A stretch of 64,000 nucleotides of DNA, from IMG/VR virus record IMGVR_UViG_3300019776_000550, positions 27,499 to 91,498 of that record. One strand, given 5' to 3'. Each line of letters opens with the position of its first letter. Positions within the stretch are counted from its first letter, which is position 1. Both the position numbers and the translations under genes were made by a program. This document shows, one piece after another, positions 4,050 to 35,965 of this stretch. Under the pieces are notes generated by a model. It saw nothing but the letters and a program-made list of their open reading frames with translations, made no database searches and was not told the DNA's origin. This stretch comes from a virus.

Positions 4050-4331
4050 TTATTTAATTCTTTTGATTACAAGTTGTCTCTTTGTGGTATCAACTTCCTT
4101 GTATATAATCGTACTTACTTTAAAATCAGAAGTAAGTTTAGATTGAACATATAATTTTGACCTCATGTGATTAGTAGGATTTTTAACTAATATCTTTTGA
4201 CCTACATTAAGTTTTTCAGATGCTTTGATTGCTAAATCAAGTCTACTTGTGTCAAAAGATACAAAGTCACCTACAAAAATTCCTTGTTCAGCTAGTTCAG
4301 CTAATTCTTCTTGTGTTAATTGATTATCCAT
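4050..4331 (-). CDS. hypothetical protein, 93 aa
   Basis: Unknown. An acidic N-terminal helix (TQEELAELAEQGIFVGDFV) precedes a basic, probably beta-rich C-terminus ending KRQLVIKRIK. It overlaps the end of the UDG gene by 16 bases, so the two are probably translated together, and it ends at a terminator. Confidence 0.65.
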   Translation of the reverse strand: MDNQLTQEELAELAEQGIFVGDFVSFDTSRLDLAIKASEKLNVGQKILVKNPTNHMRSKLYVQSKLTSDFKVSTIIYKEVDTTKRQLVIKRIK

Positions 4332-5275
4332 TTGATTGGTTGATTAAAAATATTTAAGATTTCATTTGTTTTTCTAAATACTCCTTCATGTTCCCAAGCA
4401 CGTTGTTCATAATTAGCTCTTGCAGGATGTTCGCAAGAAAGCGTAAAATGAAAAGTACTAATATACTTTTTAAAATATTGCGCTTTTGCCCCCATTAGGA
4501 TAAATACAACAGGTTGGGTTTGTCCATTTATAACCTCTATCACCTTTTGAATAAAAGGTTTCCATAATTCAGCATGTGAATTAGGTTCTCCTTTTCTAAC
4601 AGTCAAAGCAGAATTAAGAAGTAAAACACCTTGATTTGTTAAATGTGACAAAGAATTATCAAGATTAGCTGTTTCATCATAATCAAAATCAGCTTTTATT
4701 GCTTTTTCAATTAGTTGCAAAGAAACTGGTTTTTGTGATTTATGTGTAGCAAATGCAATACCTGTAGCATTATCATTGGGATAAGGGTCTTGAGCTAATA
4801 TAACTGCTTTTATTTTAGTAATATCTAACTCAAAAGATTTAAATACATTTTCTCTTGCAGGATGTACAGTATATGCATTTCTTTCAAGATTATTACATTT
4901 GTAATTAAGTTCTTTGAACCATTCTGTATTCAAAACTTCTCTCAATTCATTAAACCAAGACCAATGAAAACGTTTTAAAATTGCAGTTTCCCAAGTATTA
5001 ACATCTGGATTTGAGTTAATATTACTGTTATCAGGTTTAAAGATTAATCGATGATTTGAATAAACACCTTCTTGGTAATTAAATTTAGTATAAGGTACAA
5101 CCTCACTATCTAATTGTAAATCAAGAAATGTTTTTCTCATATTCAATCCTGTATTAGGATTATGAATAATAATATCTTTATCTTCTTTTTTTAATCTACC
5201 AACAACAGTACTTTTAATATAAAACTCACCTTTTTCAGAAATGTAATCAGGAACAAAAACACAATTATCAGACAT
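4316..5275 (-). CDS. uracil-DNA glycosylase, family 1-like, with N-terminal extension
   Basis: Excises uracil from DNA to leave an abasic site. Visible motifs: the water-activating loop AQDPYPNDNATGIAFAT (family 1 consensus GQDPYH, here with A and P at the ends but the catalytic Asp kept), the QGVLLLNSALTV strand, FILMGAKAQ, and the C-terminal SCEHPARANY, whose His matches the catalytic HPSPLS histidine. About 100 residues precede the catalytic domain and match no family I know. A start at 5296 is also open, but ATG 5275 (MSDNCVFVPD) leaves an 8-base overlap typical here. UDG genes are common in crAss-like phages. Confidence 0.85.
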   Translation of the reverse strand: MSDNCVFVPDYISEKGEFYIKSTVVGRLKKEDKDIIIHNPNTGLNMRKTFLDLQLDSEVVPYTKFNYQEGVYSNHRLIFKPDNSNINSNPDVNTWETAILKRFHWSWFNELREVLNTEWFKELNYKCNNLERNAYTVHPARENVFKSFELDITKIKAVILAQDPYPNDNATGIAFATHKSQKPVSLQLIEKAIKADFDYDETANLDNSLSHLTNQGVLLLNSALTVRKGEPNSHAELWKPFIQKVIEVINGQTQPVVFILMGAKAQYFKKYISTFHFTLSCEHPARANYEQRAWEHEGVFRKTNEILNIFNQPIKWIIN

Positions 5276-5789
5276 CTTTAGTTTTAACTGTATCATTTAG
5301 CTTGTTTGTTTCAAAAAAGTTAAAAAGATTTTCACTTTGTGATTTAGTAAGAGTTCCTGAATTGCAAAGGTTAAAAGCATTTGTTAAAATACTTTTATAT
5401 TTAGACAAAGCTTGTTTAGATGGTTGGTCAGCAAAACTTTTACCTTCTGCAAATTCTTCAAATTTCATTCTAGTCTTAGCAATATCAGTTAATTCTTCTT
5501 TTACTTCACCAAAAAAGTCTGTTACAGTGTCAACTTGCTTCCCAAGAGAATCAAGTTTTTGTGATAAAATGAAGTTATTTTTATCAGATTCAGCTAATTT
5601 AAGATTTAATTCAGCTTTAACAGCATCAGCTAATGATAATTCATTAGTTAAATACTCAACATCCCTTGCTAGATTTTCAACATCATTAGATTTTATTTTT
5701 GTTAATATAAACATTAGTATTAACAATATAGTGTAAGCTATAATAATAATCAATATGGTATGTGGTTGAATAACTGCTAAATTTAACAT
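5268..5789 (-). CDS. membrane-anchored coiled-coil protein
   Basis: Unknown function. The first about 30 residues hold one hydrophobic segment (TILIIIIAYTILLILMFIL) followed by KIK, suggesting an inner-membrane anchor with N-out/C-in or the reverse. Residues about 36-105 are a long amphipathic helix with heptad-like hydrophobics, then a small helical C-terminal domain. Such anchors in phages include spanin-like, superinfection-exclusion and replication-tethering proteins; nothing decides between these. It lies directly upstream of UDG with an 8-base overlap. Confidence 0.65.
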   Translation of the reverse strand: MLNLAVIQPHTILIIIIAYTILLILMFILTKIKSNDVENLARDVEYLTNELSLADAVKAELNLKLAESDKNNFILSQKLDSLGKQVDTVTDFFGEVKEELTDIAKTRMKFEEFAEGKSFADQPSKQALSKYKSILTNAFNLCNSGTLTKSQSENLFNFFETNKLNDTVKTKDV

Positions 5790-15070: not shown

Positions 15071-17002
15071 TTAAAATAGTTTTAATTGATTTTTGTTAAC
15101 TTTTTTATTCTTACTTTTATAATCTTGTTCAATATCATCAATAAGCTTTTGAGCTTCTTGAATATAATATCTAAAATCTATATCAGTAGGAAAATCATCA
15201 GGTAATCTGTTAATTAATTCTACATTAAATCCTGAAACTATTTGAGATATTCTACCATCTTCAAATACTTTTTTAAGTTTCTTATAAGATTTAGCTACAT
15301 AAAATCTAACAGTTCTTGATACTTCTTCTTCTTGAATAGAAACACCGTTATAAACTTGAATAACAAGTTTATCTTTTTTGTTACAACGTTCTTTTAAACA
15401 AAACTTTTTAATATCATAACAAGTTGTTATAGTTTCTCTAATAGAAATATTGTTTACAAAATAGTTAATAGCTGCAATTACACTAATTTGATTGCTATAA
15501 TCTTTATGATAAGGGTCAGGTACTGAATCTGATTTTAAATCAGGTACATAAGCTCCTTTGTACTTATATTTATTTTCTTTAGTTATAGCAAAATAATTAT
15601 TTACATCTCTAATAAACATGGCTTTATAAAAAACTTCTTCTAATTCCATGTTAAAAAAAGATTCCCATTGATTACATATCTTTCTAAAATTGTCAATTTG
15701 ATTATTATTAACATAAACGGTAATACCATCTGTATTAGCTTGTATAATTTGACAATCTTCTATTTCTGATATATCTTCTAATAACTTTAATAATCTAAGT
15801 TGACCATTAATAGTTACTTTAAATGTACACGCAATATCATACAAAAAACTATACTTATCCTTAAATTTGCCATAAACACTATTAAGTGCTTTTTTATAAG
15901 TATCAGATTGAATTTTAGCATTTTTATCACTTTTAATAAGTGATTTATTTTGCTTTCTCCAAGTAACTTGTGATTTAGCAACTTTAAGAAAAGATTCTTT
16001 ATTAAGATGTTCAGGCACTGCTTCTAAATCTATATAAAGTGAAGGATATAGTGATGCTACATCTACATCAATTATACTATGAGTAGAAGACTCTTTGAAA
16101 ACACCTTTTAAAGAACCATGAATACCACCTTTTTTAACATCTAATTTAAGTTCTTTAATATATACATCAAATGCAACTTTATTTTCAATGCTATCTTTAT
16201 TATCATTGCTATTATAAATAACAACTTTTTTAAGTTCGTGTTGAAGTTCTTTTAAATGATTTTGTTTAAAGTTGATATGTTGTATTATATCTTTTAAATT
16301 AACAAAATCTCTATTAGTTCTTCTTTGTAGAACTTCTTGTGGGTTCTCATTTGTTTCTTTACAATAATAATATAAAAAAAGATGTTCTCCTAACTTAGAA
16401 TCTGACCAATTAATACAATCTAAATTTGTATTTTGTTTGATATTTTGTCTAAGTCTTATGTTATCAACCATTTTTAAGAAAAACTGATAAGTAGCTTGAA
16501 CATCATTAAGATTGTATTCAAGTATTTTATTTTGTTCTTCTATCTTTGTAATTGTAGAAGTATAATGATAAGGCATATCTTCTACATTAGGCAATTCTAA
16601 AGCAACTTCTAATTGTTTTAAAGAAGTTCTTCTTGCTGGATTATCAAAATGAGCTATACTAAATACATCAATCTGACTAAATATAGGATTTCTAATCCTA
16701 TTGAATTTAGGAGTTTCGGTATTTACAAGTCTTTGACTTTCTTTATATAACAAATCATTCATTTCTTCTAATGGGAGATTACCAACTATATTGAAAAGAT
16801 AATCTAAAAGTGGATAATCATAGTTTAAGTTATTAAAACCTATACCTATTATACCACTATTTACAAAATCTTTATATTCTTGATAATCATTATTAAATAT
16901 AGATAAGGTGAAGCTTTTAACTTCACCTGTATCTATATCTAACCACGTTGAACAATGAAAATTTTTAAATTGCTCAATATCATATACCCAAATATTTCTC
17001 AT
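15071..17002 (-). CDS. family B DNA polymerase with 3'-5' exonuclease
   Basis: Replicative polymerase. Exonuclease motifs: Exo I VYDIEQF (D8, E10), Exo II GFNNLNYDYPLL (about 55-66), Exo III YNLNDVQATY (about 163-172). Polymerase motifs: GGIHGS (292-297, the YxGG-like link), motif A DVDVASLYPSLY (312-323), motif B KKALNSVYGKF (370-380), motif C QANTDGITVY (421-430, TDG in place of the usual DTDS) and the basic KYKYKGAY near 478-485. At 643 aa it is compact, nearer in size to protein-primed enzymes than to T4 gp43, although no terminal-protein gene is visible here. Crassvirales members carry either a family A or a family B polymerase; this one carries B. Confidence 0.9.
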   Translation of the reverse strand: MRNIWVYDIEQFKNFHCSTWLDIDTGEVKSFTLSIFNNDYQEYKDFVNSGIIGIGFNNLNYDYPLLDYLFNIVGNLPLEEMNDLLYKESQRLVNTETPKFNRIRNPIFSQIDVFSIAHFDNPARRTSLKQLEVALELPNVEDMPYHYTSTITKIEEQNKILEYNLNDVQATYQFFLKMVDNIRLRQNIKQNTNLDCINWSDSKLGEHLFLYYYCKETNENPQEVLQRRTNRDFVNLKDIIQHINFKQNHLKELQHELKKVVIYNSNDNKDSIENKVAFDVYIKELKLDVKKGGIHGSLKGVFKESSTHSIIDVDVASLYPSLYIDLEAVPEHLNKESFLKVAKSQVTWRKQNKSLIKSDKNAKIQSDTYKKALNSVYGKFKDKYSFLYDIACTFKVTINGQLRLLKLLEDISEIEDCQIIQANTDGITVYVNNNQIDNFRKICNQWESFFNMELEEVFYKAMFIRDVNNYFAITKENKYKYKGAYVPDLKSDSVPDPYHKDYSNQISVIAAINYFVNNISIRETITTCYDIKKFCLKERCNKKDKLVIQVYNGVSIQEEEVSRTVRFYVAKSYKKLKKVFEDGRISQIVSGFNVELINRLPDDFPTDIDFRYYIQEAQKLIDDIEQDYKSKNKKVNKNQLKLF

Positions 17003-21531: not shown

Positions 21532-21541
21532 TTTCCCACTC

Positions 21542-21590
21542 AACCTTCTATCATTATGATAGCTAACCCTTGTGAAGTTAGAATGAGGTT
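21542..21590. repeat. three-way-junction-like element
   Basis: Closing stem AACCT/AGGTT (21542-21546, 21586-21590) encloses CTATCA/TGATAG (21548-21562) and CTAAC/GTTAG (21563-21581), two adjacent hairpins. Confidence 0.5.
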
Positions 21591-21591
21591 T

Positions 21592-21650
21592 TAAGAATCG
21601 TTAGTTTTATTCTGTTGCCAAGAAAAACTAACAAAAAACTCCGAATCTTA
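21592..21650 (-). terminator. nested hairpin downstream of the zinc-motif gene
   Basis: Inner 9-bp stem GTTAGTTTT (21600-21608) with 21624-21632, and an outer 8-of-9-bp stem (21592-21600 with 21642-21650). It begins right after the stop of the gene at 21652, so it may end that transcript or be the first element of the structured tract. The following T run on the minus strand is weak. Confidence 0.45.
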
Positions 21651-21651
21651 T

Positions 21652-22041
21652 TCAGTCGCAGAGTTCAGACCTAACACAACCTGAATGTGCAAATGGAAAT
21701 CCATCATACATTCCACCTCCGCAATGACTACAAGTAGTCTCTGCAAAAGTGTCATGGATTTTTTCCATTGCTTCATTGGTTGCTGGTTCAGACATCAACT
21801 CTAGCAATACTTTCCTTAAATCATAAGGATTATGGACTTTGTAAGTATTATGCTCACAATCCATAGCGTATGCAGAGTCAATATTCTCATGCGTTATGTT
21901 TATACACTTATTATTGTAATAAGCTGATAAGCAATAAACATGAGGTAGTCTGTGACCATTAAAGTCTAAACCAAACTGCTCTACAAGGACTAATTCTGTC
22001 ATTGTTTTACAATTTAATTTAAAAAGTTTTTCTACTAACAT
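21652..22041 (-). CDS. hypothetical protein with C-terminal zinc-binding-like motif
   Basis: Unknown. The C-terminus reads TTCSHCGGGMYDGFPFAHSG followed by C, so CxxC plus H and C could bind zinc. A second in-frame start at 22002 (MTELVLVEQFGLDF) has an A-rich leader and may be the real one; the first ATG lies within a weak hairpin. The gene is flanked by hairpin-rich spacers on both sides and is not coupled to a neighbour. Confidence 0.55.
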   Translation of the reverse strand: MLVEKLFKLNCKTMTELVLVEQFGLDFNGHRLPHVYCLSAYYNNKCINITHENIDSAYAMDCEHNTYKVHNPYDLRKVLLELMSEPATNEAMEKIHDTFAETTCSHCGGGMYDGFPFAHSGCVRSELCD

Positions 22042-22144
22042 AACTTCTAGTAGATAAAGTGATACTAATTACCTGTTGATTCTCAAGATGTATCAAGTCT
22101 TGATTCCTTATACTCAGTTAGCAGGTTCTGAGTTTAGGATTGAG
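22042..22144. other. 103-base spacer with short hairpins
   Basis: Contains TCAAGA/TCTTGA and ACTCAG/CTGAGT stems with loops of about 10 bases, continuing the structured character of the tract further left. No coding frame of note. Confidence 0.4.
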
Positions 22145-22510
22145 TTACAGAGTAACCACTTTCTCTCTCAAATTACGAGAGACATGGTTTCTCAATGTCT
22201 GCAAATCTGCCTGTTCTTTACAGACAAACTCTCCATTTGCTTCTCTAACAAGAGTAGCAATAATAGGAAAGTTCCCTGTAAGTCCATGCAGTGCTACTAA
22301 TACCATAGTAGCTAATGCAGACATTCCTGGAACTGCTACCGTAACAACAGTATTACTTTCAACCCCTAAAGATTGAAGATACTTTGTTACAGCTTCCAAA
22401 TTTTCCCCAAATGGTTTTTCAGGGTTAATTTGAACAGTTCCATGAAACTCAAATCCTAATTCATCAAGACTCTTGTTAAAGTGTCCTGACAAGTTAAGTT
22501 TCTTGTTCAT
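22145..22510 (-). CDS. Csx15-like (CARF-related) protein, candidate type III CRISPR counter-signalling factor
   Basis: A 121-aa protein starting MNKKLNLSGHFNKSLDELGF. Pattern: an N-terminal strand ending in a small-residue/His turn (LSGH), a VQINPEKPF strand, a central helix (ENLEAVTKYLQSLGV), a VVTVAVPGMSALATMVLVAL helix start, LHGLTGNFPIIATLVRE, and a closing helix LQTLRNHVSRNLRE. This order matches what I remember of the CRISPR-associated Csx15 family ('NFS/GHP...LHGrxGyFP...NLQxVRd'), a small CARF-like Rossmann protein tied to type III systems and cyclic oligoadenylates. No cas gene is nearby. A longer frame opens at 22558, but ATG 22510 has a better leader. The family match is from memory, not from a search. 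Confidence 0.5.
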   Translation of the reverse strand: MNKKLNLSGHFNKSLDELGFEFHGTVQINPEKPFGENLEAVTKYLQSLGVESNTVVTVAVPGMSALATMVLVALHGLTGNFPIIATLVREANGEFVCKEQADLQTLRNHVSRNLREKVVTL

Positions 22511-22558
22511 TTTTAAGGAACGTAGGAAACTAATGTGTTCTATTCTAAGTAAGAACAC

Positions 22559-22689
22559 TTAACTTGCAACCACTAAAGTAGGTTACTTTCACTTTGTAGC
22601 ATATTTAAAAATCTGGAGGTAATGCTACTTAACCTCACTGTTAGCTTTTTATATAAAAAAGCTAAAAAAACAAAAACAAAAAGAAAAAA
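22559..22689. other. spacer with hairpins between the Csx15-like gene and the gene at 22699
   Basis: Holds GTAGCAT/ATGCTAC (near 22598-22631) and TTAGCTTTTT/AAAAAGCTAA (near 22641-22668) stems; just upstream GTGTTCT/AGAACAC (near 22533-22557) covers the region before the start codon. No gene is visible. Confidence 0.45.
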
Positions 22690-22710
22690 AAGCTAGGATT
22701 AACCTAGCTT
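22682..22710 (-). terminator. intrinsic terminator overlapping a stop codon
   Basis: An 8-bp stem (AAGCTAGG at 22690-22697 with 22703-22710) whose loop holds the TAA stop of the gene at 22699, followed by a long T-rich run on the minus strand. Confidence 0.75.
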
Positions 22711-24186: not shown

Positions 24187-24377
24187 ACTTAGAAGAAGTA
24201 ACAAAGATAAGAGTAAGAATCAAAGCTCTTCAATTGCAAGTTGATACTGCCAATAGTATCATAGAAAAAGCTGAACTAATGGATGAAATTGAAGATTTAA
24301 AAATTCAAGTTGGTGATTTTGAAAGAAAAGTAAGAGATATTAGTGATGATTTAGATTGTGAAAACTGTAGCGGATAA
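24183..24377 (+). CDS. small coiled-coil protein, 64 aa
   Basis: Nearly all helix with heptad-like Leu/Ile positions (VRIKALQLQVDTANSIIEKA) and a C-terminal DCENC. Possibly a dimerising adaptor for a neighbouring protein. Function unknown. Confidence 0.6.
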   Translation: MNLEEVTKIRVRIKALQLQVDTANSIIEKAELMDEIEDLKIQVGDFERKVRDISDDLDCENCSG

Positions 24378-24378
24378 T

Positions 24379-25146
24379 ATGAAATACTTTATAGACACTG
24401 AATTTCTTGAAGGAACGCAAGATAAAACTATATTTGGAATTAAATATGGTAAAACGAAGCCTACAATTGATTTAATATCAATAGGTATAGTAGCAGAAGA
24501 TGGTAGAGAATATTATGCTATTAGCAAAGATTTTAATTTAAAAGAAGCTTGGAATAGGTATGATTTAAAAATCAATAAACATTTTCCACAAGGTTCTGAA
24601 TATAATAAAGAATATTGGATTAGAGACAATGTGTTATTTTCAATTTGGAAAGAACTTGTAGCTAAAGATGTACAATGGTACAAAGATATGTGGAGAAAAG
24701 TTCCAACTTATACAAATGCTTATAATCCTAAAGACCATTACTTTAATTACAGTAACCTTAAAAGACTTATTAATGATTACGGCAAAACAAATAAACAAAT
24801 AGCAGAAGAAGTTAAAGAATTTGTTTATAAAAATAATAAACCTGAGTTTTATGGTTATTATTCAGATTATGATTGGGTAGCTTTTTGCTGGTTATTTGGG
24901 AAAATGATAGATTTACCTAAAGAGTTTCCTCAATATTGTATTGATTTAAAACAAGAATTAGATAATAAAGTTAAAACTTATTTTGCACAAAGAGATGATG
25001 ATTATATATTAAATGTTTATGGTTATGAAGGCGTATTAAATAAAGTTAAACAGTTGCCTGATTACCCAAAGCAAATTAATGAACATCATGCTTTAGCGGA
25101 TGCTAAATGGAATAAAGAGTTATATGATTTTTTTGACTTTTATTGA
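24379..25146 (+). CDS. DEDDh 3'-5' exoribonuclease, Rv2179c-like
   Basis: RNase T-like fold of the Rv2179c family. Motifs: FIDTEFLEG (Exo I D and E), FYGYYSDYDWVAFCWLFG (Exo II D) and the DEDDh motif III HHALADAKWN. At 255 aa it is longer than Rv2179c itself because of an insert around residues 70-130. It would trim RNA or short oligonucleotides; in a phage early operon that could mean host mRNA turnover or removal of signalling oligonucleotides, which is inference. I chose ATG 24379, 1 base after the previous stop, over the GTG at 24358. Confidence 0.8.
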   Translation: MKYFIDTEFLEGTQDKTIFGIKYGKTKPTIDLISIGIVAEDGREYYAISKDFNLKEAWNRYDLKINKHFPQGSEYNKEYWIRDNVLFSIWKELVAKDVQWYKDMWRKVPTYTNAYNPKDHYFNYSNLKRLINDYGKTNKQIAEEVKEFVYKNNKPEFYGYYSDYDWVAFCWLFGKMIDLPKEFPQYCIDLKQELDNKVKTYFAQRDDDYILNVYGYEGVLNKVKQLPDYPKQINEHHALADAKWNKELYDFFDFY

Positions 25147-25172
25147 ATAATTAAAACTTAACTTATAATATT

Positions 25173-25367
25173 ATGTGGCAAACATGTCCTATATGTAAAG
25201 GGATTGGTAAAGTCAATCATTCTTATATAAATAATTCAAATACTTCTCTTTGTGAAACTTGTGATGGCAAAGGGATAATTAGTGAATTAACTGGATTATC
25301 ACCTGTTAAAGCCAATAATCAAAATATTAAATATAAAAACTTAAAACAATTTACAAGATGGAAATAA
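25173..25367 (+). CDS. DnaJ-type zinc-finger small protein
   Basis: A 64-aa protein with two CxxCxGxG modules (CPICKGIGK and CETCDGKGI) forming one zinc site like half of the DnaJ cysteine-rich domain. Such proteins are common in phages and are thought to act as zinc-binding adaptors or redox chaperones. It overlaps the Acb2-like gene by 10 bases, so the two are likely co-translated. Confidence 0.75.
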   Translation: MWQTCPICKGIGKVNHSYINNSNTSLCETCDGKGIISELTGLSPVKANNQNIKYKNLKQFTRWK

Positions 25368-25630
25368 AGCAAACTTTTGGGCAAAAAGCAGTAGGTTTAA
25401 CTTTTAATCCTAGTGACAACGATAAAGTAGGTAAAGCTAAACAACTAGCTGCTGACTTAATTGATTTAGTAGAGTTAGATTATTATGAAAAAACTACTCT
25501 TCCAACAGATGAAAAAATTAATCAACTTGGCAAATCAAGTTGGTTAACTAATGTTTTTCGTACAGCAGCGTTTAATACAATTATAGCTGCACAAATGGCA
25601 GTAGTTAAATTTTTAACTTGGAAAGATTAA
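25358..25630 (+). CDS. Acb2/Tad1-like cyclic-nucleotide sponge (anti-CBASS candidate)
   Basis: A 90-aa, mostly helical protein. The N-terminal signature FGQKAVGLTFNPSDNDKVGK is followed by KQLAADLIDLVE and a C-terminal helix NTIIAAQMAVVKFLTW. This is the pattern I associate with the Acb2/Tad1 hairpin family (FNPS..., A-LID, then 'A-M-AVK-LT'), hexameric proteins that sequester cyclic di- and trinucleotides from CBASS and in some members gcADPR from Thoeris. Length fits (about 80-100 aa). It ends the early transcript with a terminator 24 bases downstream. Assignment is by motif recall without a search. Confidence 0.7.
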   Translation: MEIKQTFGQKAVGLTFNPSDNDKVGKAKQLAADLIDLVELDYYEKTTLPTDEKINQLGKSSWLTNVFRTAAFNTIIAAQMAVVKFLTWKD

Positions 25631-27454: not shown

Positions 27455-27790
27455 ATGGCATCTTTAACATTAACAGAAGTAGCAATTGAATCATTAATTC
27501 CTAACCCCAATCAGCTTGTTCTTGAATTACCAAAGGATTATGATAAGGGAAAGTTTAACATTCAACGTCAAGATAAACATTTAAGAACTGACCTATTATA
27601 TAAAGTAGAAAAAATAGGTCAAAATGCAAAAGACTTTCTTGGTATTGATAAAAATTATTTCATACTTTTACAACCTAACCTTACTGTAATAACAATTTTG
27701 ATAGAAGGGCTTACTTATATCTTAATTGACATGACAGATGTGTTAGTAGCATTTAAAGAAAAAAAGCAATTAGTACATGTTGAACAATAA
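27455..27790 (+). CDS. hypothetical protein, 111 aa, first gene of the packaging/structural operon
   Basis: Unknown. Beta-rich, with two hydrophobic strands (LTVITILIEGLTYILIDMTD) that could be a buried sheet rather than a membrane segment. It is preceded by a 125-base spacer that probably holds the late promoter, though no clear consensus is visible. It overlaps the HU/IHF-like gene by 14 bases. Confidence 0.6.
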   Translation: MASLTLTEVAIESLIPNPNQLVLELPKDYDKGKFNIQRQDKHLRTDLLYKVEKIGQNAKDFLGIDKNYFILLQPNLTVITILIEGLTYILIDMTDVLVAFKEKKQLVHVEQ

Positions 27791-28788: not shown

Positions 28789-30954
28789 ATGTTTACAGGA
28801 ATTAATTATTTTAGAGAACTTGCTTTATATTATGATAAGCATGGATATTACCCTTATGCAAATGAATATCAAGAAATTTATAATGAATTAAACCCTGCCA
28901 ATAGCAAATTAAAAGTACCTGTTCCCTTTGATGCTTTACCTTATTACATGCAAGATTTTGCAAAGGAAACTATTACAAAATTTGTAAATGGAGATAGTCA
29001 TGGTGATACTATTATTACAGGAGAACATTTCTTTTATCTCAATGCTGTTAATATTGAAAGAACTGTAGTTAATCAACCTGGAATACATAAGAATAACACA
29101 ACTAATGCTAGAAAAGTAGGTAGTAGAAAATTTGCATTTCCTGATTTTTGGGATGAAGATTGGAGATACTTTTGGGCTTGTGATATAGCAAGACACGGAT
29201 TAAAAGAAGGATATGAATTAGAAGAATATAATAGAATATGCAAACCATGTAGTTTACAACTCATTACAACTCCTGAAAACTTTAGTGGAGGATTAGATAT
29301 TTTTTATCTTAAACCTAGAGGTGTAGGAGCAAGTTGGAAAGGTGGCTCTTATGCTAATTATAATCAATTTTTAATTCCTGACAGTAATACTTTTATTATG
29401 GCTGAAACTCAAGAATACCTTTTGAAAGATGGTATTTTTGATAAGTTTAATAAGATAAGAAGTTTTATTCAAAGTAAATGTTGGTGGTTAAGCAAACATT
29501 TTTATAAAGAAAGTTTAAGTAACTTTGAATATAGCACAGGATTAAAACAAATCATTAATGGAGCAAATGTAACACAAGGCTTTAACACTACCGTTGCAGG
29601 TGTTACAATAGATGGTAGTGCAGACAAAGCTCGTGGTAAAAGAGGTAATATTATATTTGAAGAAGCAGGTTCATTTCCTTCATTAGCAAGAGTATGGGAA
29701 GTAAGTGAAGCTTCTGTAAATGAATATGGTGTTATATATGGACAAAGAAGAGCTTTTGGTACAGGAGGTGATGAAGGAGGTCATTTTGCTTTTATGGAAG
29801 AAGTTACTAATAATCCACAAGATTATAGAGTAATTCAATGTGAAAATATATATGATGAATTTCAAAAACCTATTACATTCTTTACTCCTTGTTATACTAA
29901 CATTACAGATAAAGATGAAAATGGAAATAGTGACAAGGAGTTAGCTAAAAAGAAATTTGACAAAATAGAAGAAGAGTTAAATAAAAGTGATAATATTACA
30001 AGGTTAGACCAGCATAAAGCTGAATTTCCTAGAAAACCATCAGATGCTTTTAGAACATTAGCTGATAATTTATTACCATCAGCTAAGGCTAAACAAAGGT
30101 TGGAATATCTTGAAAAAACAAATATAGATAGAGCAGTTTGTACTTATGGTACTTTAGAAACTAATACAAAAGAAATTATATTTCTACCTGACAATGTTTT
30201 ACCTTTTGAGCAATATCCTGTAAAATCTGATGGTAAGAGTAAAAAAGGTTGTATTGCTATATTTCAACAACCTTTTAAAGTTCGCAATACAGTACCTGAC
30301 GATTTGTATATTCTTTATGTAGATGCTTATACGCAAGATGAATCTCAATCAGGTTCAGTAGGAGCTGCTTATGTATATGAACAACCTAATAGATATACTA
30401 GATTTAAAGGAGGTATAAGTCCTGCTTGGTATGTAAGTAGACCTGAGGGATTTAATGGTTCTACAGAATTTGCTAAAAATGTATTTTTACTTGCTGAATT
30501 TTACAATGCTAAGATTAGTTTAGAAAATGACCAAGTAGGAGATTTAGTAAGTTATGCAAAAAAGAATAGAGATACTAAAGGTAGAAAGCTTACTTTGTAT
30601 TTAAGTGAACAGTTTGATTTAGGTTTTGATGAAAAATTAGCTACTAAAGCATCTATGAAAAGAAGTTTTGGTATGCACATGACAGAACCTAGAAAACGAC
30701 AAGGTTTGAAGTATTTAGATGAATGGTTAACTACTCCAAGAGGTATAAATGAAGATGGTCAGATTATTTATAATATCGATATGATTTATGATAGAGGACT
30801 ACTTAAAGAAATTAAATATTATAAGTATGGAGTAAACGCTGATAGAATTTCTAGTTGGTTAATTGGTATGTATCATATCAAAGAAGAAGAATATCAAGAA
30901 ACTAAAAGAAGAAGACGAGAACACAATAGTTTAGAAAACCTAAGATTATACTAA
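28789..30954 (+). CDS. terL: large terminase subunit (TerL)
   Basis: Packaging motor. ATPase domain: Walker A-like YLKPRGVGASWKGG (about 173-186), Walker B GNIIFEEAGSF (about 286-296), and coupling motif in the following segment (VIYGQRRAFGTGGDE). Nuclease domain: DLYILYVDAYTQDE (first Asp of the RNase H-like site, about 503) and ISLENDQVGDLVSY (second acidic strand). At 721 aa it fits crAss-like TerL. It overlaps the portal gene by one base (TAATG). This is one of the best-supported calls in the window. Confidence 0.92.
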   Translation: MFTGINYFRELALYYDKHGYYPYANEYQEIYNELNPANSKLKVPVPFDALPYYMQDFAKETITKFVNGDSHGDTIITGEHFFYLNAVNIERTVVNQPGIHKNNTTNARKVGSRKFAFPDFWDEDWRYFWACDIARHGLKEGYELEEYNRICKPCSLQLITTPENFSGGLDIFYLKPRGVGASWKGGSYANYNQFLIPDSNTFIMAETQEYLLKDGIFDKFNKIRSFIQSKCWWLSKHFYKESLSNFEYSTGLKQIINGANVTQGFNTTVAGVTIDGSADKARGKRGNIIFEEAGSFPSLARVWEVSEASVNEYGVIYGQRRAFGTGGDEGGHFAFMEEVTNNPQDYRVIQCENIYDEFQKPITFFTPCYTNITDKDENGNSDKELAKKKFDKIEEELNKSDNITRLDQHKAEFPRKPSDAFRTLADNLLPSAKAKQRLEYLEKTNIDRAVCTYGTLETNTKEIIFLPDNVLPFEQYPVKSDGKSKKGCIAIFQQPFKVRNTVPDDLYILYVDAYTQDESQSGSVGAAYVYEQPNRYTRFKGGISPAWYVSRPEGFNGSTEFAKNVFLLAEFYNAKISLENDQVGDLVSYAKKNRDTKGRKLTLYLSEQFDLGFDEKLATKASMKRSFGMHMTEPRKRQGLKYLDEWLTTPRGINEDGQIIYNIDMIYDRGLLKEIKYYKYGVNADRISSWLIGMYHIKEEEYQETKRRRREHNSLENLRLY

Positions 30955-33374
30955 TGAACGGCACATTACCTTTACAGAAAATACCTAAGAATAAAAAGGA
31001 TAGAGAGTGGAAAGTTAATAACTTAAAATATTACAATACATTTGCGTATAGTAATAATTCACTTTCTTACAACAAAGCTATTGAAAGATTATTTAAAATA
31101 GCTGCTGGTATTATGGATGTAACTGATTATAGTCACATTCAAAATCCTTATCATTTAATAGGTGAACAGTATAAAAAGTACCCTGAAAAACTTCGTAGAT
31201 ATGATATTGTAAGTCCTTTGTTTTTAAGAGCATTAAGAGAATTTAAGAAAAGACCATTTGAACCTGTTGTTTATACTCAAAATAGTAATTTTGATAGTAT
31301 GAAACAACAAGCTGAAAAAGCATTAATAGAAGAAAGTTTACAAAGGAAGTTTGTTAATATGTTAATTCAAACAGGTCAGCTACAAGAACAAGAACCTGTT
31401 GAAGAAATTAGTCCTGATGTTATTAAGCAAAAAGTCAGTACTTTAAAAGATATTGAAACTATATCTGGACAAAAAGTATTAGATTATATACTATCAAAAG
31501 AAGATATTTACTCTCAATATGTGAGAGAATTTTATCATTTTATATGCAGTAACAGATGTAGTAGTTATGCAGATGTAAGGTATGATAATATCATAAGATA
31601 TTCAGTACATCCTATGATTATTGATTCATATGGCAGTAAAAATAATAGGTTGTTAGAAGATGCTAACGTAGTTAGAGCTAGATATAATTTTACTTACGAA
31701 GAAGTTATTGATATATTTCAAGGAGAAGATTTGAGTGAATATCCTGATTTCTTTGAATATCTTGAAAGATATAATACTAATAGAACTACAAGTAATTCTG
31801 ATTTTTATGATGATAGAGTTACTAATTATCTATCGCAGTATATGTATAACAGGTATGGAATTACAAGAAATGATACTGCTATTAGTAATACAAAGTATAT
31901 AAATGTAAATCATATTCAATGGACTAGTTTTAGACTTGTACACTTTATTCCTAATGGGGATTCTTTTATTGAAGTAGATGAAGATTATCAAGGTAATGAT
32001 ATTATATACAGTGAGTGGAAAGAAGAAGTTAGAGAAGGTTATGTAGTAGCTAACAAGTATTTTATTGGAGGTGATTGTTTAGAATTTCCTCGATATGATT
32101 TTAATAATCCATTTAAAGCAAAAAACAGTTATTGTGGAATTACTTTTATGGATGATTTAGTTCAACAAATTAGTATTCCTGAAAAAATAGTACAGTATCA
32201 AGAAGCTTATGATGTTGTTAAATTTAAAATTCAATATACAATAAATAAAAACAAAGATAAAATAGCCACAATACCTTTAAGTTTGATTAGAGGTTCTATG
32301 CCTATTGATTCTTCTAAAGATAAATTTGAACATACATTTGGTGAAGATGAAGATAAAGACTTGCAGTTTTTACAAAAAGAAATGGAGAGAGGTAGGAATC
32401 ATCCATTGGCAGAAGCTATGTATTTTGCTGATACTACTCAAATGCTTTTTGTAGATGATACTAGTGAAACTGCTGCTACTGCTGTACAAATGTTAAAACA
32501 AATAGATTTAAGCTTAGGTAATTATATTGGGTTTTTAATGGATTACGCTCGTAGCATTAAAGCAGAAGCAGAAGACTTATTTGGATTTAATAGATTTGTT
32601 AATGGTGATATAGGTCAAAGAGATTCTGTTAGAAATGTTCAACAGGGTTTAGAACAATCTACAGCTATTATTGATTTATATTATGATGAATTTGAAAGGT
32701 ATCAAGCTTGTGATTTGCAGAGATTATTAGATTTAAGTAGATATGCTTTTAGAACAGGTAAGAATCTTACTTATGTGAGAGATAATACTGACATTGAAAG
32801 ACTACAGATTCCTGATAATTATCAACACTTGTCTTATGGTATATTTGTTCGCAATAGTGCTAAGACAAAAGAAGTATTAGATAGACTTAAAAATCTTGCA
32901 AATGAGTTTATTCAAAATGGAATGAAACCTTCTGTTTATGGAAAATTAATTTCACAATCTTCTAATTATGCTAGTATTATAAAAGAGATTGAAGACAAAG
33001 AAATTGAAATGCAAAAGCAACAAGAAATGCAAGCTCAAGCTGATAGAGATAATCAAATTAAGCTTCAAGAAATGCAAATGCAAGATAAACAAGCTGATAG
33101 AGATATTGAAAAATATAAAATAGATACAAATGCAGAAGTTGCGATTAATAAAACAATTGCTACTTTGCAATCTATGAGTATTGGCAATGATGATGATAAT
33201 GCTGTTTTAGAGTTAGAAAAGATAAGAATGGCTCAAATAACAGAACTTCAAAATAACATGATTAAGAAAGAAGATATTAAGACTAAAAAAGAAATAGCAA
33301 AAGCTAATAATGATACTAAAAGATTTGTAGCTGAACAATCATTAAAAGTAGCTAAAGAAAATAAAGGTAAGTAA
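30954..33374 (+). CDS. portal protein
   Basis: An 806-aa protein immediately after TerL. N-terminal and middle part mixed alpha/beta with a long 'stem/wing' region; residues about 670-806 are a Gln/Lys/Glu-rich coiled coil (KEIEMQKQQEMQAQADRDNQ), typical of crAss-like portals, where it forms the barrel inside the capsid. Called mainly from length, position between TerL and the capsid genes, and the coiled-coil tail; no short catalytic motif exists for portals. Confidence 0.82.
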   Translation: MNGTLPLQKIPKNKKDREWKVNNLKYYNTFAYSNNSLSYNKAIERLFKIAAGIMDVTDYSHIQNPYHLIGEQYKKYPEKLRRYDIVSPLFLRALREFKKRPFEPVVYTQNSNFDSMKQQAEKALIEESLQRKFVNMLIQTGQLQEQEPVEEISPDVIKQKVSTLKDIETISGQKVLDYILSKEDIYSQYVREFYHFICSNRCSSYADVRYDNIIRYSVHPMIIDSYGSKNNRLLEDANVVRARYNFTYEEVIDIFQGEDLSEYPDFFEYLERYNTNRTTSNSDFYDDRVTNYLSQYMYNRYGITRNDTAISNTKYINVNHIQWTSFRLVHFIPNGDSFIEVDEDYQGNDIIYSEWKEEVREGYVVANKYFIGGDCLEFPRYDFNNPFKAKNSYCGITFMDDLVQQISIPEKIVQYQEAYDVVKFKIQYTINKNKDKIATIPLSLIRGSMPIDSSKDKFEHTFGEDEDKDLQFLQKEMERGRNHPLAEAMYFADTTQMLFVDDTSETAATAVQMLKQIDLSLGNYIGFLMDYARSIKAEAEDLFGFNRFVNGDIGQRDSVRNVQQGLEQSTAIIDLYYDEFERYQACDLQRLLDLSRYAFRTGKNLTYVRDNTDIERLQIPDNYQHLSYGIFVRNSAKTKEVLDRLKNLANEFIQNGMKPSVYGKLISQSSNYASIIKEIEDKEIEMQKQQEMQAQADRDNQIKLQEMQMQDKQADRDIEKYKIDTNAEVAINKTIATLQSMSIGNDDDNAVLELEKIRMAQITELQNNMIKKEDIKTKKEIAKANNDTKRFVAEQSLKVAKENKGK

Positions 33375-34444: not shown

Positions 34445-35965
34445 ATGTATCCTTTTAAATCCGACATAGTTCTAGGTGAAGGAATCTACAACGATAATGA
34501 ATATGCAGGTATTCAAAGACTTGATGCTATTCGTCAATCTAGTGGTATTGACCCTGCCATTAAAGAACTTTTAAACAGTCAAGCAGTTTATGCTTTTGGT
34601 AATGATGCTCAATTTGGTAGCAAAAACTTTCCTATTCTTATGCAAACGCAAGGTATGGGAAGAAAACGTGCTGTAACATCTTATGATGGGCAAGTTTATA
34701 ATATGATTTTTGGTAAACCAAAGAAAGTATCTGTAATTGCTCGTACTATTCAATATGGTACTGATACAGTAGGTTTAAATTACAATCCTTTTTATATTAT
34801 TTTTAAAGACCGTCATTTCATGAAAAATCAAATTATCATGGCTGGTGGTATTATGGGTAATGTTCAAGTACAACTCAAAGATGGTGGAGTTAAAGAAGGT
34901 GCTGGTTGGAAATACCAATGTGTTGTTTTTGGTAAAGTAACTGATTTTGTTCGTTCAAGTTATCTTCGTGCTAATCAAGTATGGGCAGAAGGAGTTGTTA
35001 AAGTTTCTCAAGAACACTCACGAGGAACTGAACATCGTAGTTATGGCCCTTCACGTGTACAAAATCAACTATCTTTGATTCGTCAATCTATTAAAGTAGC
35101 TGGTAACATTGCTAACAAAGTACTTAACTTTACTATCAATGTTGATGGTAAGTCTATTAAGAGTTTTGTTGAGTGGGAAAAGTATTTGACAGAACTTGCG
35201 TTTAACGAAAAGAAAGAAACTGATATTCTACTTTCTAAATCAAATCGTGGAGAAGATGGTTTTGTACAAAACTTTGATGCTGACAGTAACAAACCTGTAG
35301 TTTCAGGTCACGGTATTATCAATCAAATTCCTGATACACACGTTCTTTCATATACACGTATGACAGAAAAGAAACTTGATACTTTCCTTACAGATACACT
35401 TGATATTAGTATGAATCTTGATACAGATTTGACTAAGACTAAGGTTGTTGATATTATGGGAGGTTATGGTTTGTTCCAAGAATTTGATTATGCTATGAAG
35501 CGTAATATGAATACTCTTGTACCAATGCTTAATTCTGATTTGTTTATTCAAAAGAATGGAGAAGGTGGTCTTACTTATGGTGGTTACTTTACTCAATACA
35601 AACACCGTTCAGGAGCTGTTTATCGCTTTACACATCACCCATTCTTTGAAAATAGTGCTGTAGCTCAATCTGCTCCTCGTCACCCTGTTACAAATCGTCC
35701 TATTACTTCTTACGAAGGTATTATTTTGAACTTTGCTGAAATTTCAATGGGTGAAGGTAAAACAGCACCAAATATTGAGTTTCTTTATGAAGAAGGTCGT
35801 GAATACATTGAAGGTACTGTAAGAGGTATGGCTAAGATTGAAGGTCGTCAAGGTGGTGATATTAGCACTGATATTGATGCTTCATCATTGGAGATGATGT
35901 GTTCACAAGGAGTACACGTAAACCAACCACTAGGTCTTGGTTATGTTAGATGTAAACTATCTTAA
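34445..35965 (+). CDS. major capsid protein (HK97 fold)
   Basis: A 506-aa protein. Conserved-looking block near the N-terminus (YPFKSDIVLGEGIYNDNE, then LLNSQAVYAFGNDAQFGS) and a C-terminal P-domain-like region (LEMMCSQGVHVNQPLGLGYV) match crAss-like MCPs in my memory. Codon use differs from neighbours: CGT for Arg and GGT for Gly dominate, as expected for the most abundant virion protein. Preceded by a likely promoter at 33415 and by the scaffold-like gene. Confidence 0.85.
   Translation: MYPFKSDIVLGEGIYNDNEYAGIQRLDAIRQSSGIDPAIKELLNSQAVYAFGNDAQFGSKNFPILMQTQGMGRKRAVTSYDGQVYNMIFGKPKKVSVIARTIQYGTDTVGLNYNPFYIIFKDRHFMKNQIIMAGGIMGNVQVQLKDGGVKEGAGWKYQCVVFGKVTDFVRSSYLRANQVWAEGVVKVSQEHSRGTEHRSYGPSRVQNQLSLIRQSIKVAGNIANKVLNFTINVDGKSIKSFVEWEKYLTELAFNEKKETDILLSKSNRGEDGFVQNFDADSNKPVVSGHGIINQIPDTHVLSYTRMTEKKLDTFLTDTLDISMNLDTDLTKTKVVDIMGGYGLFQEFDYAMKRNMNTLVPMLNSDLFIQKNGEGGLTYGGYFTQYKHRSGAVYRFTHHPFFENSAVAQSAPRHPVTNRPITSYEGIILNFAEISMGEGKTAPNIEFLYEEGREYIEGTVRGMAKIEGRQGGDISTDIDASSLEMMCSQGVHVNQPLGLGYVRCKLS

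Follow-up and report, generated by a model that had tools for sequence, protein, structure and literature searches.

A 121-residue open reading frame on the minus strand of a metagenomic virus contig raises the question of whether a phage can carry the CRISPR-associated protein Csx15 and, if so, what function the protein would serve there. The stretch analysed (the window) comprises 64,000 nucleotides, positions 27,499 to 91,498 of IMG/VR record IMGVR_UViG_3300019776_000550, a 91.5 kb contig labelled G000. Positions refer to the window unless stated otherwise.

Identification of a Csx15 gene

22145..22510, minus strand: csx15 gene, 121 aa, ATG at 22510 (NCBIfam, PADLOC, PDB 9tet/9teu, AlphaFold2)

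The translated frame (MNKKLNLSGH...VPGMSALATMVLVALHGLTGNFPIIATLV...LQTLRNHVSRNLREKVVTL) was matched by the NCBIfam profile NF040560.1 CAS_Csx15 with 48.1 bits (E 1.2e-12), the curated cut-off of this profile being 35 bits, and by the Csx15 profile of a second library, PADLOC, at E 7.6e-8. Sequence matches in the PDB were confined to 9tet (PfCsx15, E 2e-5) and 9teu (CliCsx15, E 7e-4). Pfam profile search returned no match and the PHROGs search a chance-level match only (phrog_31652, E 0.03). Identity to cellular Csx15 was about 22–31%. The sequence-only reading had proposed a Csx15-like protein on the basis of stretches running from the LNLSGH start to the tail; each of these is present in the frame, and the family claim is borne out by the NCBIfam score over cut-off, the PADLOC match and the sequence matches to both solved Csx15 proteins. 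Among the Csx15, Csx16 and Csx20 profiles it had named as a check, that of Csx15 was the one above its cut-off. Taken together, profile, residue and context evidence establish the 121-aa minus-strand protein as Csx15, a small protein of the CARF superfamily. The family assignment is based on sequence evidence, the fold search by itself being insufficient.

The ATG at 22510 agrees with the start of Csx15 homologues. A GTG at 22558, giving 137 aa, was rejected as the start because it falls within a promoter-like site and cellular Csx15 has no counterpart of the 16 added residues.

Phage context and expression

28789..30954, plus strand: terminase large subunit, TerL (phrog_6681, E 2.8e-69; Crassvirales relatives)
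30954..33374, plus strand: portal protein (phrog_6547, E 1.2e-52; crAss-like relatives)
34445..35965, plus strand: major capsid protein, MCP (phrog_11589, E 4.9e-53; crAssphage relatives)
15071..17002, minus strand: DNA polymerase of the minus-strand replication arm headed by csx15 (phrog_1252, E 9.7e-136)

TerL, portal and MCP agree with the earlier designation of the source as a crAss-like phage and confirm that the record is a Crassvirales phage. Its closest named relatives are crAssphages and Flavobacterium and Cellulophaga phages of Crassvirales, at about 23–30% identity. Replication genes occupy the minus strand left of about 22.9 kb and virion genes the plus strand right of 23.4 kb, and csx15 comes second in the replication arm. 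Elsewhere in the window, the C-terminal half of a 326-aa protein (4316-5296) is a uracil-DNA glycosylase domain. The Cas10 palm domain and Cmr3 were sought throughout the 91.5-kb record and neither was found, nor did a simple repeat scan of the record reveal a CRISPR-like array, so that the claim of no cas gene nearby also holds. In common with AcrIII proteins, this Csx15 is encoded by a phage, as identified by TerL, portal and MCP, and stands without Cas10 or Cmr3. Absence of Cas10 marks the phage form of Csx15 and is not a defining trait of the protein family.

22542..22569, minus strand: possible csx15 promoter (TTGCAA, 16 nt, TAGAAT; consensus scan), sequence conserved in phage G001 (see below)
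22690..22710, minus strand: intrinsic-terminator-like hairpin that follows the 76-aa gene upstream (terminator scan)

The terminator-like hairpin ahead of the gene suggests that a separate transcript begins with csx15. Promoter-consensus matches in the region are no more frequent than expected by chance, and early expression is therefore proposed from the position of the gene. A Bacteroidota-type promoter was sought before csx15 and not found. The leader also contains an inverted repeat (TGTTCT...AGAACA, 22536-22557) that overlaps the promoter-like site, is kept in G001 and is a possible operator.

An exchanged block shared with a distant phage

21649..22595, minus strand: 947-bp block of leader, csx15 and a 129-aa gene, 93% nucleotide identity with G001 (blastn)
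21652..22041, minus strand: 129-aa protein with a Cys-rich CSHCGGG motif near its end, the downstream partner of csx15; its G001 neighbour is 88% identical

The sole close relative of this Csx15 in IMG/VR was found in G001 (UViG_3300016476_001273; L028-L034), a contig of 136 kb. Identity between G000 and G001 was 25% for TerL, 23% for the portal and 30% for the DNA polymerase. The portal of G001 (68006-70741 of that contig) is nearest to that of Leptolyngbya phage Lbo-JY46 (35%), followed by csAssE-Sib and Cellulophaga phages, and G001 is a second crAss-like phage. As Lbo-JY46 is a phage of a cyanobacterium, the hosts of crAss-like phages of the G000/G001 type need not be Bacteroidota.

The search for homologues in other crAss-like phages that the sequence-only reading had suggested led to G001, where the csx15 block is carried at 93% identity and in the same location, next to the divergence point, where the replication arm begins. 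Between the two csx15 genes there are 20 nucleotide differences and 2 amino-acid changes (dN 0.007, dS 0.26, dN/dS about 0.03), and the 129-aa neighbour gene gave dN 0.060 and dS 0.33. A near-identical block in distant phages, with few amino-acid changes, indicates that csx15 is passed between phages and that purifying selection on it is strong; the csx15 block is an exchanged, selected cassette. The 129-aa protein had no family match in NCBIfam, Pfam, PHROGs or PADLOC profile searches. Employed as baits, the DNA polymerase and the 129-aa protein recovered one relative each and no additional csx15 cassette.

Other traces of exchange were observed. A 59-nt element (21536-21594) lies downstream of the block in G000; its counterpart in G001, an 83% match, is on the upstream side, and the element may mark recombination ends. 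An Rv2179c-like 3'-5' exoribonuclease gene (24358-25146) is 98% identical to G001 gene 105820-106590 and forms a second recently exchanged block, and a further one, encoding a 257-aa protein that is 87% identical, lies outside the window at positions 24848-25621 of G000.

Ligand residues and predicted fold

22481..22483, minus strand: codon of H10 (SGH motif), equivalent to PfCsx15 H11 / CliCsx15 H13, cA4 binding/catalysis (alignment and published mutants)
22286..22288, minus strand: codon of H75 (LHG motif), equivalent to PfCsx15 H82 / CliCsx15 H90, invariant in alignments
22166..22192, minus strand: codons of R107, R112 and R115 (C-terminal arginine helix), equivalent to PfCsx15 R116, R120 and R123 (alignment)

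In PfCsx15 and CliCsx15 the ligand site is formed where dimers stack, one dimer contributing H11/H13 and S9 (Chi et al. 2026, PMC13148439) and the other H82/H90 together with R116, R120 and R123 (PMC13148439). Mutation or structure implicates H11, H82, R116, R120 and R123 of PfCsx15 and H13 and H90 of CliCsx15 (PMC13148439). At the corresponding alignment columns the phage protein has S8, H10, H75, R107, R112 and R115. H10, within LNLSGH, is the motif-I histidine in the loop after strand 1, H75 the LHG histidine, and R107, R112 and R115 the three C-terminal arginines. All five of these histidines and arginines were invariant in an alignment of 16 sequences; in a larger one (n=45) H75, R107 and R112 were invariant while H10 and R115 were at least 90% conserved. 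In addition, F95 aligns with Y113 of CliCsx15, which flanks the adenine. The crAss form is compact and departs from the canonical pattern in several places, as the WQT motif is missing, GNFP replaces GHFP, TLVR replaces RLRP, the hairpin is shorter, and one residue more separates R107 from R112 (arginine-helix spacing 5+3 versus 4+3).

Both tested Csx15 proteins are specific for cyclic tetra-adenylate, cA4 (PMC13148439), and in E. coli the cellular protein CliCsx15 shuts down cA4 immunity and restores survival against type III CRISPR (PMC13148439). PfCsx15 acts as a sponge and hardly cleaves cA4, yet it has the histidines that CliCsx15 needs for cleavage (PMC13148439). On account of this, sequence is compatible with either a sponge or a ring nuclease and does not distinguish them.

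The AlphaFold2 model of the phage protein, for which an alignment of 45 window and locus sequences was used as input, had a pLDDT of 90.1 and a pTM of 0.81. Strands were predicted at 2-6, 55-59, 83-89 and 95-102 and helices at 13-17, 34-47, 64-78 and 103-118, giving the element order E-H-H-E-H-E-E-H, which includes a beta hairpin and ends in the arginine helix, as published for Csx15. The model is a CARF-like alpha/beta fold in which one canonical strand is missing and the beta hairpin is extended, and its matches in structural libraries were weak. Foldseek against the PDB gave nothing below E 0.001, the top ranks being shared by SAVED/CARF proteins (Cap5, AcrIII-2 9r8s, Cam1, Sis0455 and Csm6) and DUSP phosphatases. 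The latter were not read as homologues since profile searches with the sequence indicated Csx15 and matched no profile of a phosphatase.

Repeated occurrence of Csx15 in phages

Scans of IMG/VR with broader alignments recovered seven more viral Csx15 records, representing six further phage lineages with the following phage genes:

L022/L023 (one phage): exonuclease VIII, helicase, primase, integrase
L041/G004: TerL
L042/G005: baseplate wedge, phage multi-subunit RNA polymerase, DnaB
L043/G006: tape measure, TerL, head protease
L044/G007: TerL, portal, capsid, tape measure
L045/G008: TerL, portal, tape measure, primase

Cas10 was absent from all seven viral Csx15 records searched (G001, G002 and G004-G008), and the identical search detected it in 7/7 cellular genomes with Csx15. 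The Csx15 phages are mutually almost unrelated, with 0 to 4 proteins in common pairwise. In the 58-sequence tree, viral proteins were scattered among the cellular ones; the viral/cellular label changes 7 times, and supported branches force at least 4 of these changes. Viral and cellular sequences were paired in two cases, L041 with L092 and L043 with L089, and the surroundings of the L092 and L089 genes are those of ordinary type III loci, containing genes of the Cmr or Csm type, including a GGDD-bearing Cas10. The cellular csx15 genes L123 and L124 likewise lie beside Cmr/Csm-type genes inside type III loci; the gene content of loci around cellular csx15 was read by eye from open reading frames. 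The crAss-like pair and a Heimdallarchaeota protein sit together on a long branch, a placement that is not reliable. Csx15 has thus been taken up repeatedly by unrelated phages, in seven lineages when the crAss-like phages are included.

Phage copies of csx15 were found in uncultivated-virus contigs only. With crAss and canonical Csx15 as queries, tblastn against 50,697 INPHARED phages and 72,556 plasmids (PLSDB) gave no real match, the INPHARED result being in agreement with a published negative survey. In this survey of 28,114 phage genomes by Hoikkala et al., AcrIII-1, Csx20 and Csx16 were found and no Csx15 was reported (PMC12409355). Among sampled cellular genomes, the frequency of Csx15 was 67/400 in the phylum of Ktedonosporobacter (Chloroflexota), 21/394 in the phylum of Chlorobaculum and 5/392 in the phylum of Thermogutta. 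Six of the cellular proteins (L008, L018, L056, L058, L121 and L122) have an N-terminal hydrophobic extension that is probably a membrane anchor.

Proposed function

The mechanism that we propose starts with a csx15 product made early in infection, from a promoter of its own where the replication arm begins. The protein would form dimers that stack head to tail, and cA4 would be trapped between the stacked dimers. As a result the level of free cA4, the signal generated by the host type III complex (Cas10) on sensing phage RNA, would fall and cA4-activated effectors (Csx1/Csm6-type nucleases and others) would stay off. Slow cleavage of cA4 by the phage protein may add to trapping.

Dimer stacking, cA4 binding, early expression and an anti-CRISPR effect are all properties that we infer for the phage protein. 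An anti-type III function is best supported since the functional residues are kept, the gene is under purifying selection and moves between phages, and uptake has taken place without cas genes; on these same grounds the earlier suggestion of an anti-type III factor, either sponge or ring nuclease, is upheld as an inference. We put the probability that the phage Csx15 is an anti-type III protein trapping cA4 between stacked dimers, as a sponge or slow ring nuclease, at roughly 0.78. It also appears reasonably likely that phages have turned to Csx15 repeatedly as a counter-defence, with seven or more unrelated lineages, crAss-like phages among them, having separately exchanged it with type III CRISPR loci and using stacked dimers to trap cA4 against type III immunity.

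A true Csx15 relative could alternatively be aimed at another cyclic-nucleotide defence, of the CBASS kind, instead of type III CRISPR. The diverged pocket surroundings of the crAss form, with GNFP in place and WQT and RLR lost, would allow for a different ligand; related SAVED domains, which appear among the structural matches, bind CBASS ligands, and anti-CBASS phage sponges are common (PMC11722364; PMC13148439). The tested pair of Csx15 proteins is nevertheless cA4-specific (PMC13148439), the residues with which they hold this ligand are all kept in the phage form, and cellular Csx15 is located inside type III loci (L123 and L124), making a CBASS-like target unlikely. A further alternative is a domesticated Csx15 that has lost its ligand function and now serves the phage structurally or as a regulator. 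The long tree branch and the low identity to cellular Csx15 would fit such a protein, whereas a dN/dS of about 0.03, the retention of precisely the ligand residues and the independent, repeated capture of Csx15 by other phages would not, and we regard domestication as rather improbable.

Since csx15 is elsewhere an accessory gene of cellular CRISPR systems and the virus contig comes from a metagenome, a cellular gene brought in by misassembly or misbinning also had to be considered. Phage genes flank csx15 on both sides, its composition resembles the rest of the record and Cas10 is absent. A misassembled cellular gene was rejected, being practically refuted by G001, where the gene occupies the same place in a second crAss-like contig of 136 kb.

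Relation to known systems

The phage form resembles PfCsx15 and CliCsx15 (NF040560; 9tet and 9teu) in profile family, ligand histidines, arginine triad and predicted layout and differs from them in being phage-borne, without cas genes and 121 aa long as opposed to about 126. With AcrIII-1 / Crn2, likewise phage-encoded, it would share the removal of cA4 and the turning off of type III CRISPR signalling, but AcrIII-1 is an enzyme of another family that uses the 2'-hydroxyl of its substrate (PMC13148439), and no sequence relation to the phage Csx15 was found. AcrIII-2 / Crn5 (PDB 9r8s), reported as the top structural relative of Csx15 (PMC13148439), is a viral protein of the SAVED/CARF superfamily that stacks head to tail around cA4 and gave a weak Foldseek match; it differs as a SAVED protein of about 235 residues in a separate sequence family. 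Csx16 and Csx20, CRISPR-associated cA4 ring nucleases present in few phages (2 and 4 of 28,114; PMC12409355), are comparable as well while belonging to other families. Phage sponges of the Acb2/Acb4 type also trap a cyclic nucleotide signal but are anti-CBASS proteins of other families with other ligands.

The Csx15 family and the strategy of cA4 removal are accordingly already known, and phage-borne Csx15 is apparently unreported; a literature search for a crAss-like ring nuclease found no report. Chi et al. took the absence of Csx15 from phages to suggest that it may lack anti-CRISPR utility (PMC13148439). The seven unrelated phage lineages with Csx15 contradict this premise and remove the argument. 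Chi et al. further argued that, given the large amounts of cA4 produced by type III systems, sponging should have little effect on them (PMC13148439), and the suggestion that it may be fruitless there becomes testable, as a phage-evolved Csx15 is directly comparable with a cellular sponge (Pf) and a slow ring nuclease (Cli). Uncultivated viruses show a distribution of Csx15 different from that in the published phage survey (PMC12409355), and Crassvirales gain a candidate type III counter-defence.

Csx15-like domains were also observed in other settings. Two uncharacterised viral models (BFVD), A0A6J5NYB9 and A0A1S5Y369, match the model of the phage protein with a Foldseek probability of 1.00 and are candidate viral Csx15-like proteins, one of them from an archaeal virus. 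A literature search for 'CbCash' (PDB 9ylu/9ylv/9ylx) found no paper. This protein of 297 aa contains a C-terminal Csx15-like domain (168-290) in which MQG replaces the LHG histidine, suggesting that Csx15 domains also occur as parts of larger proteins.
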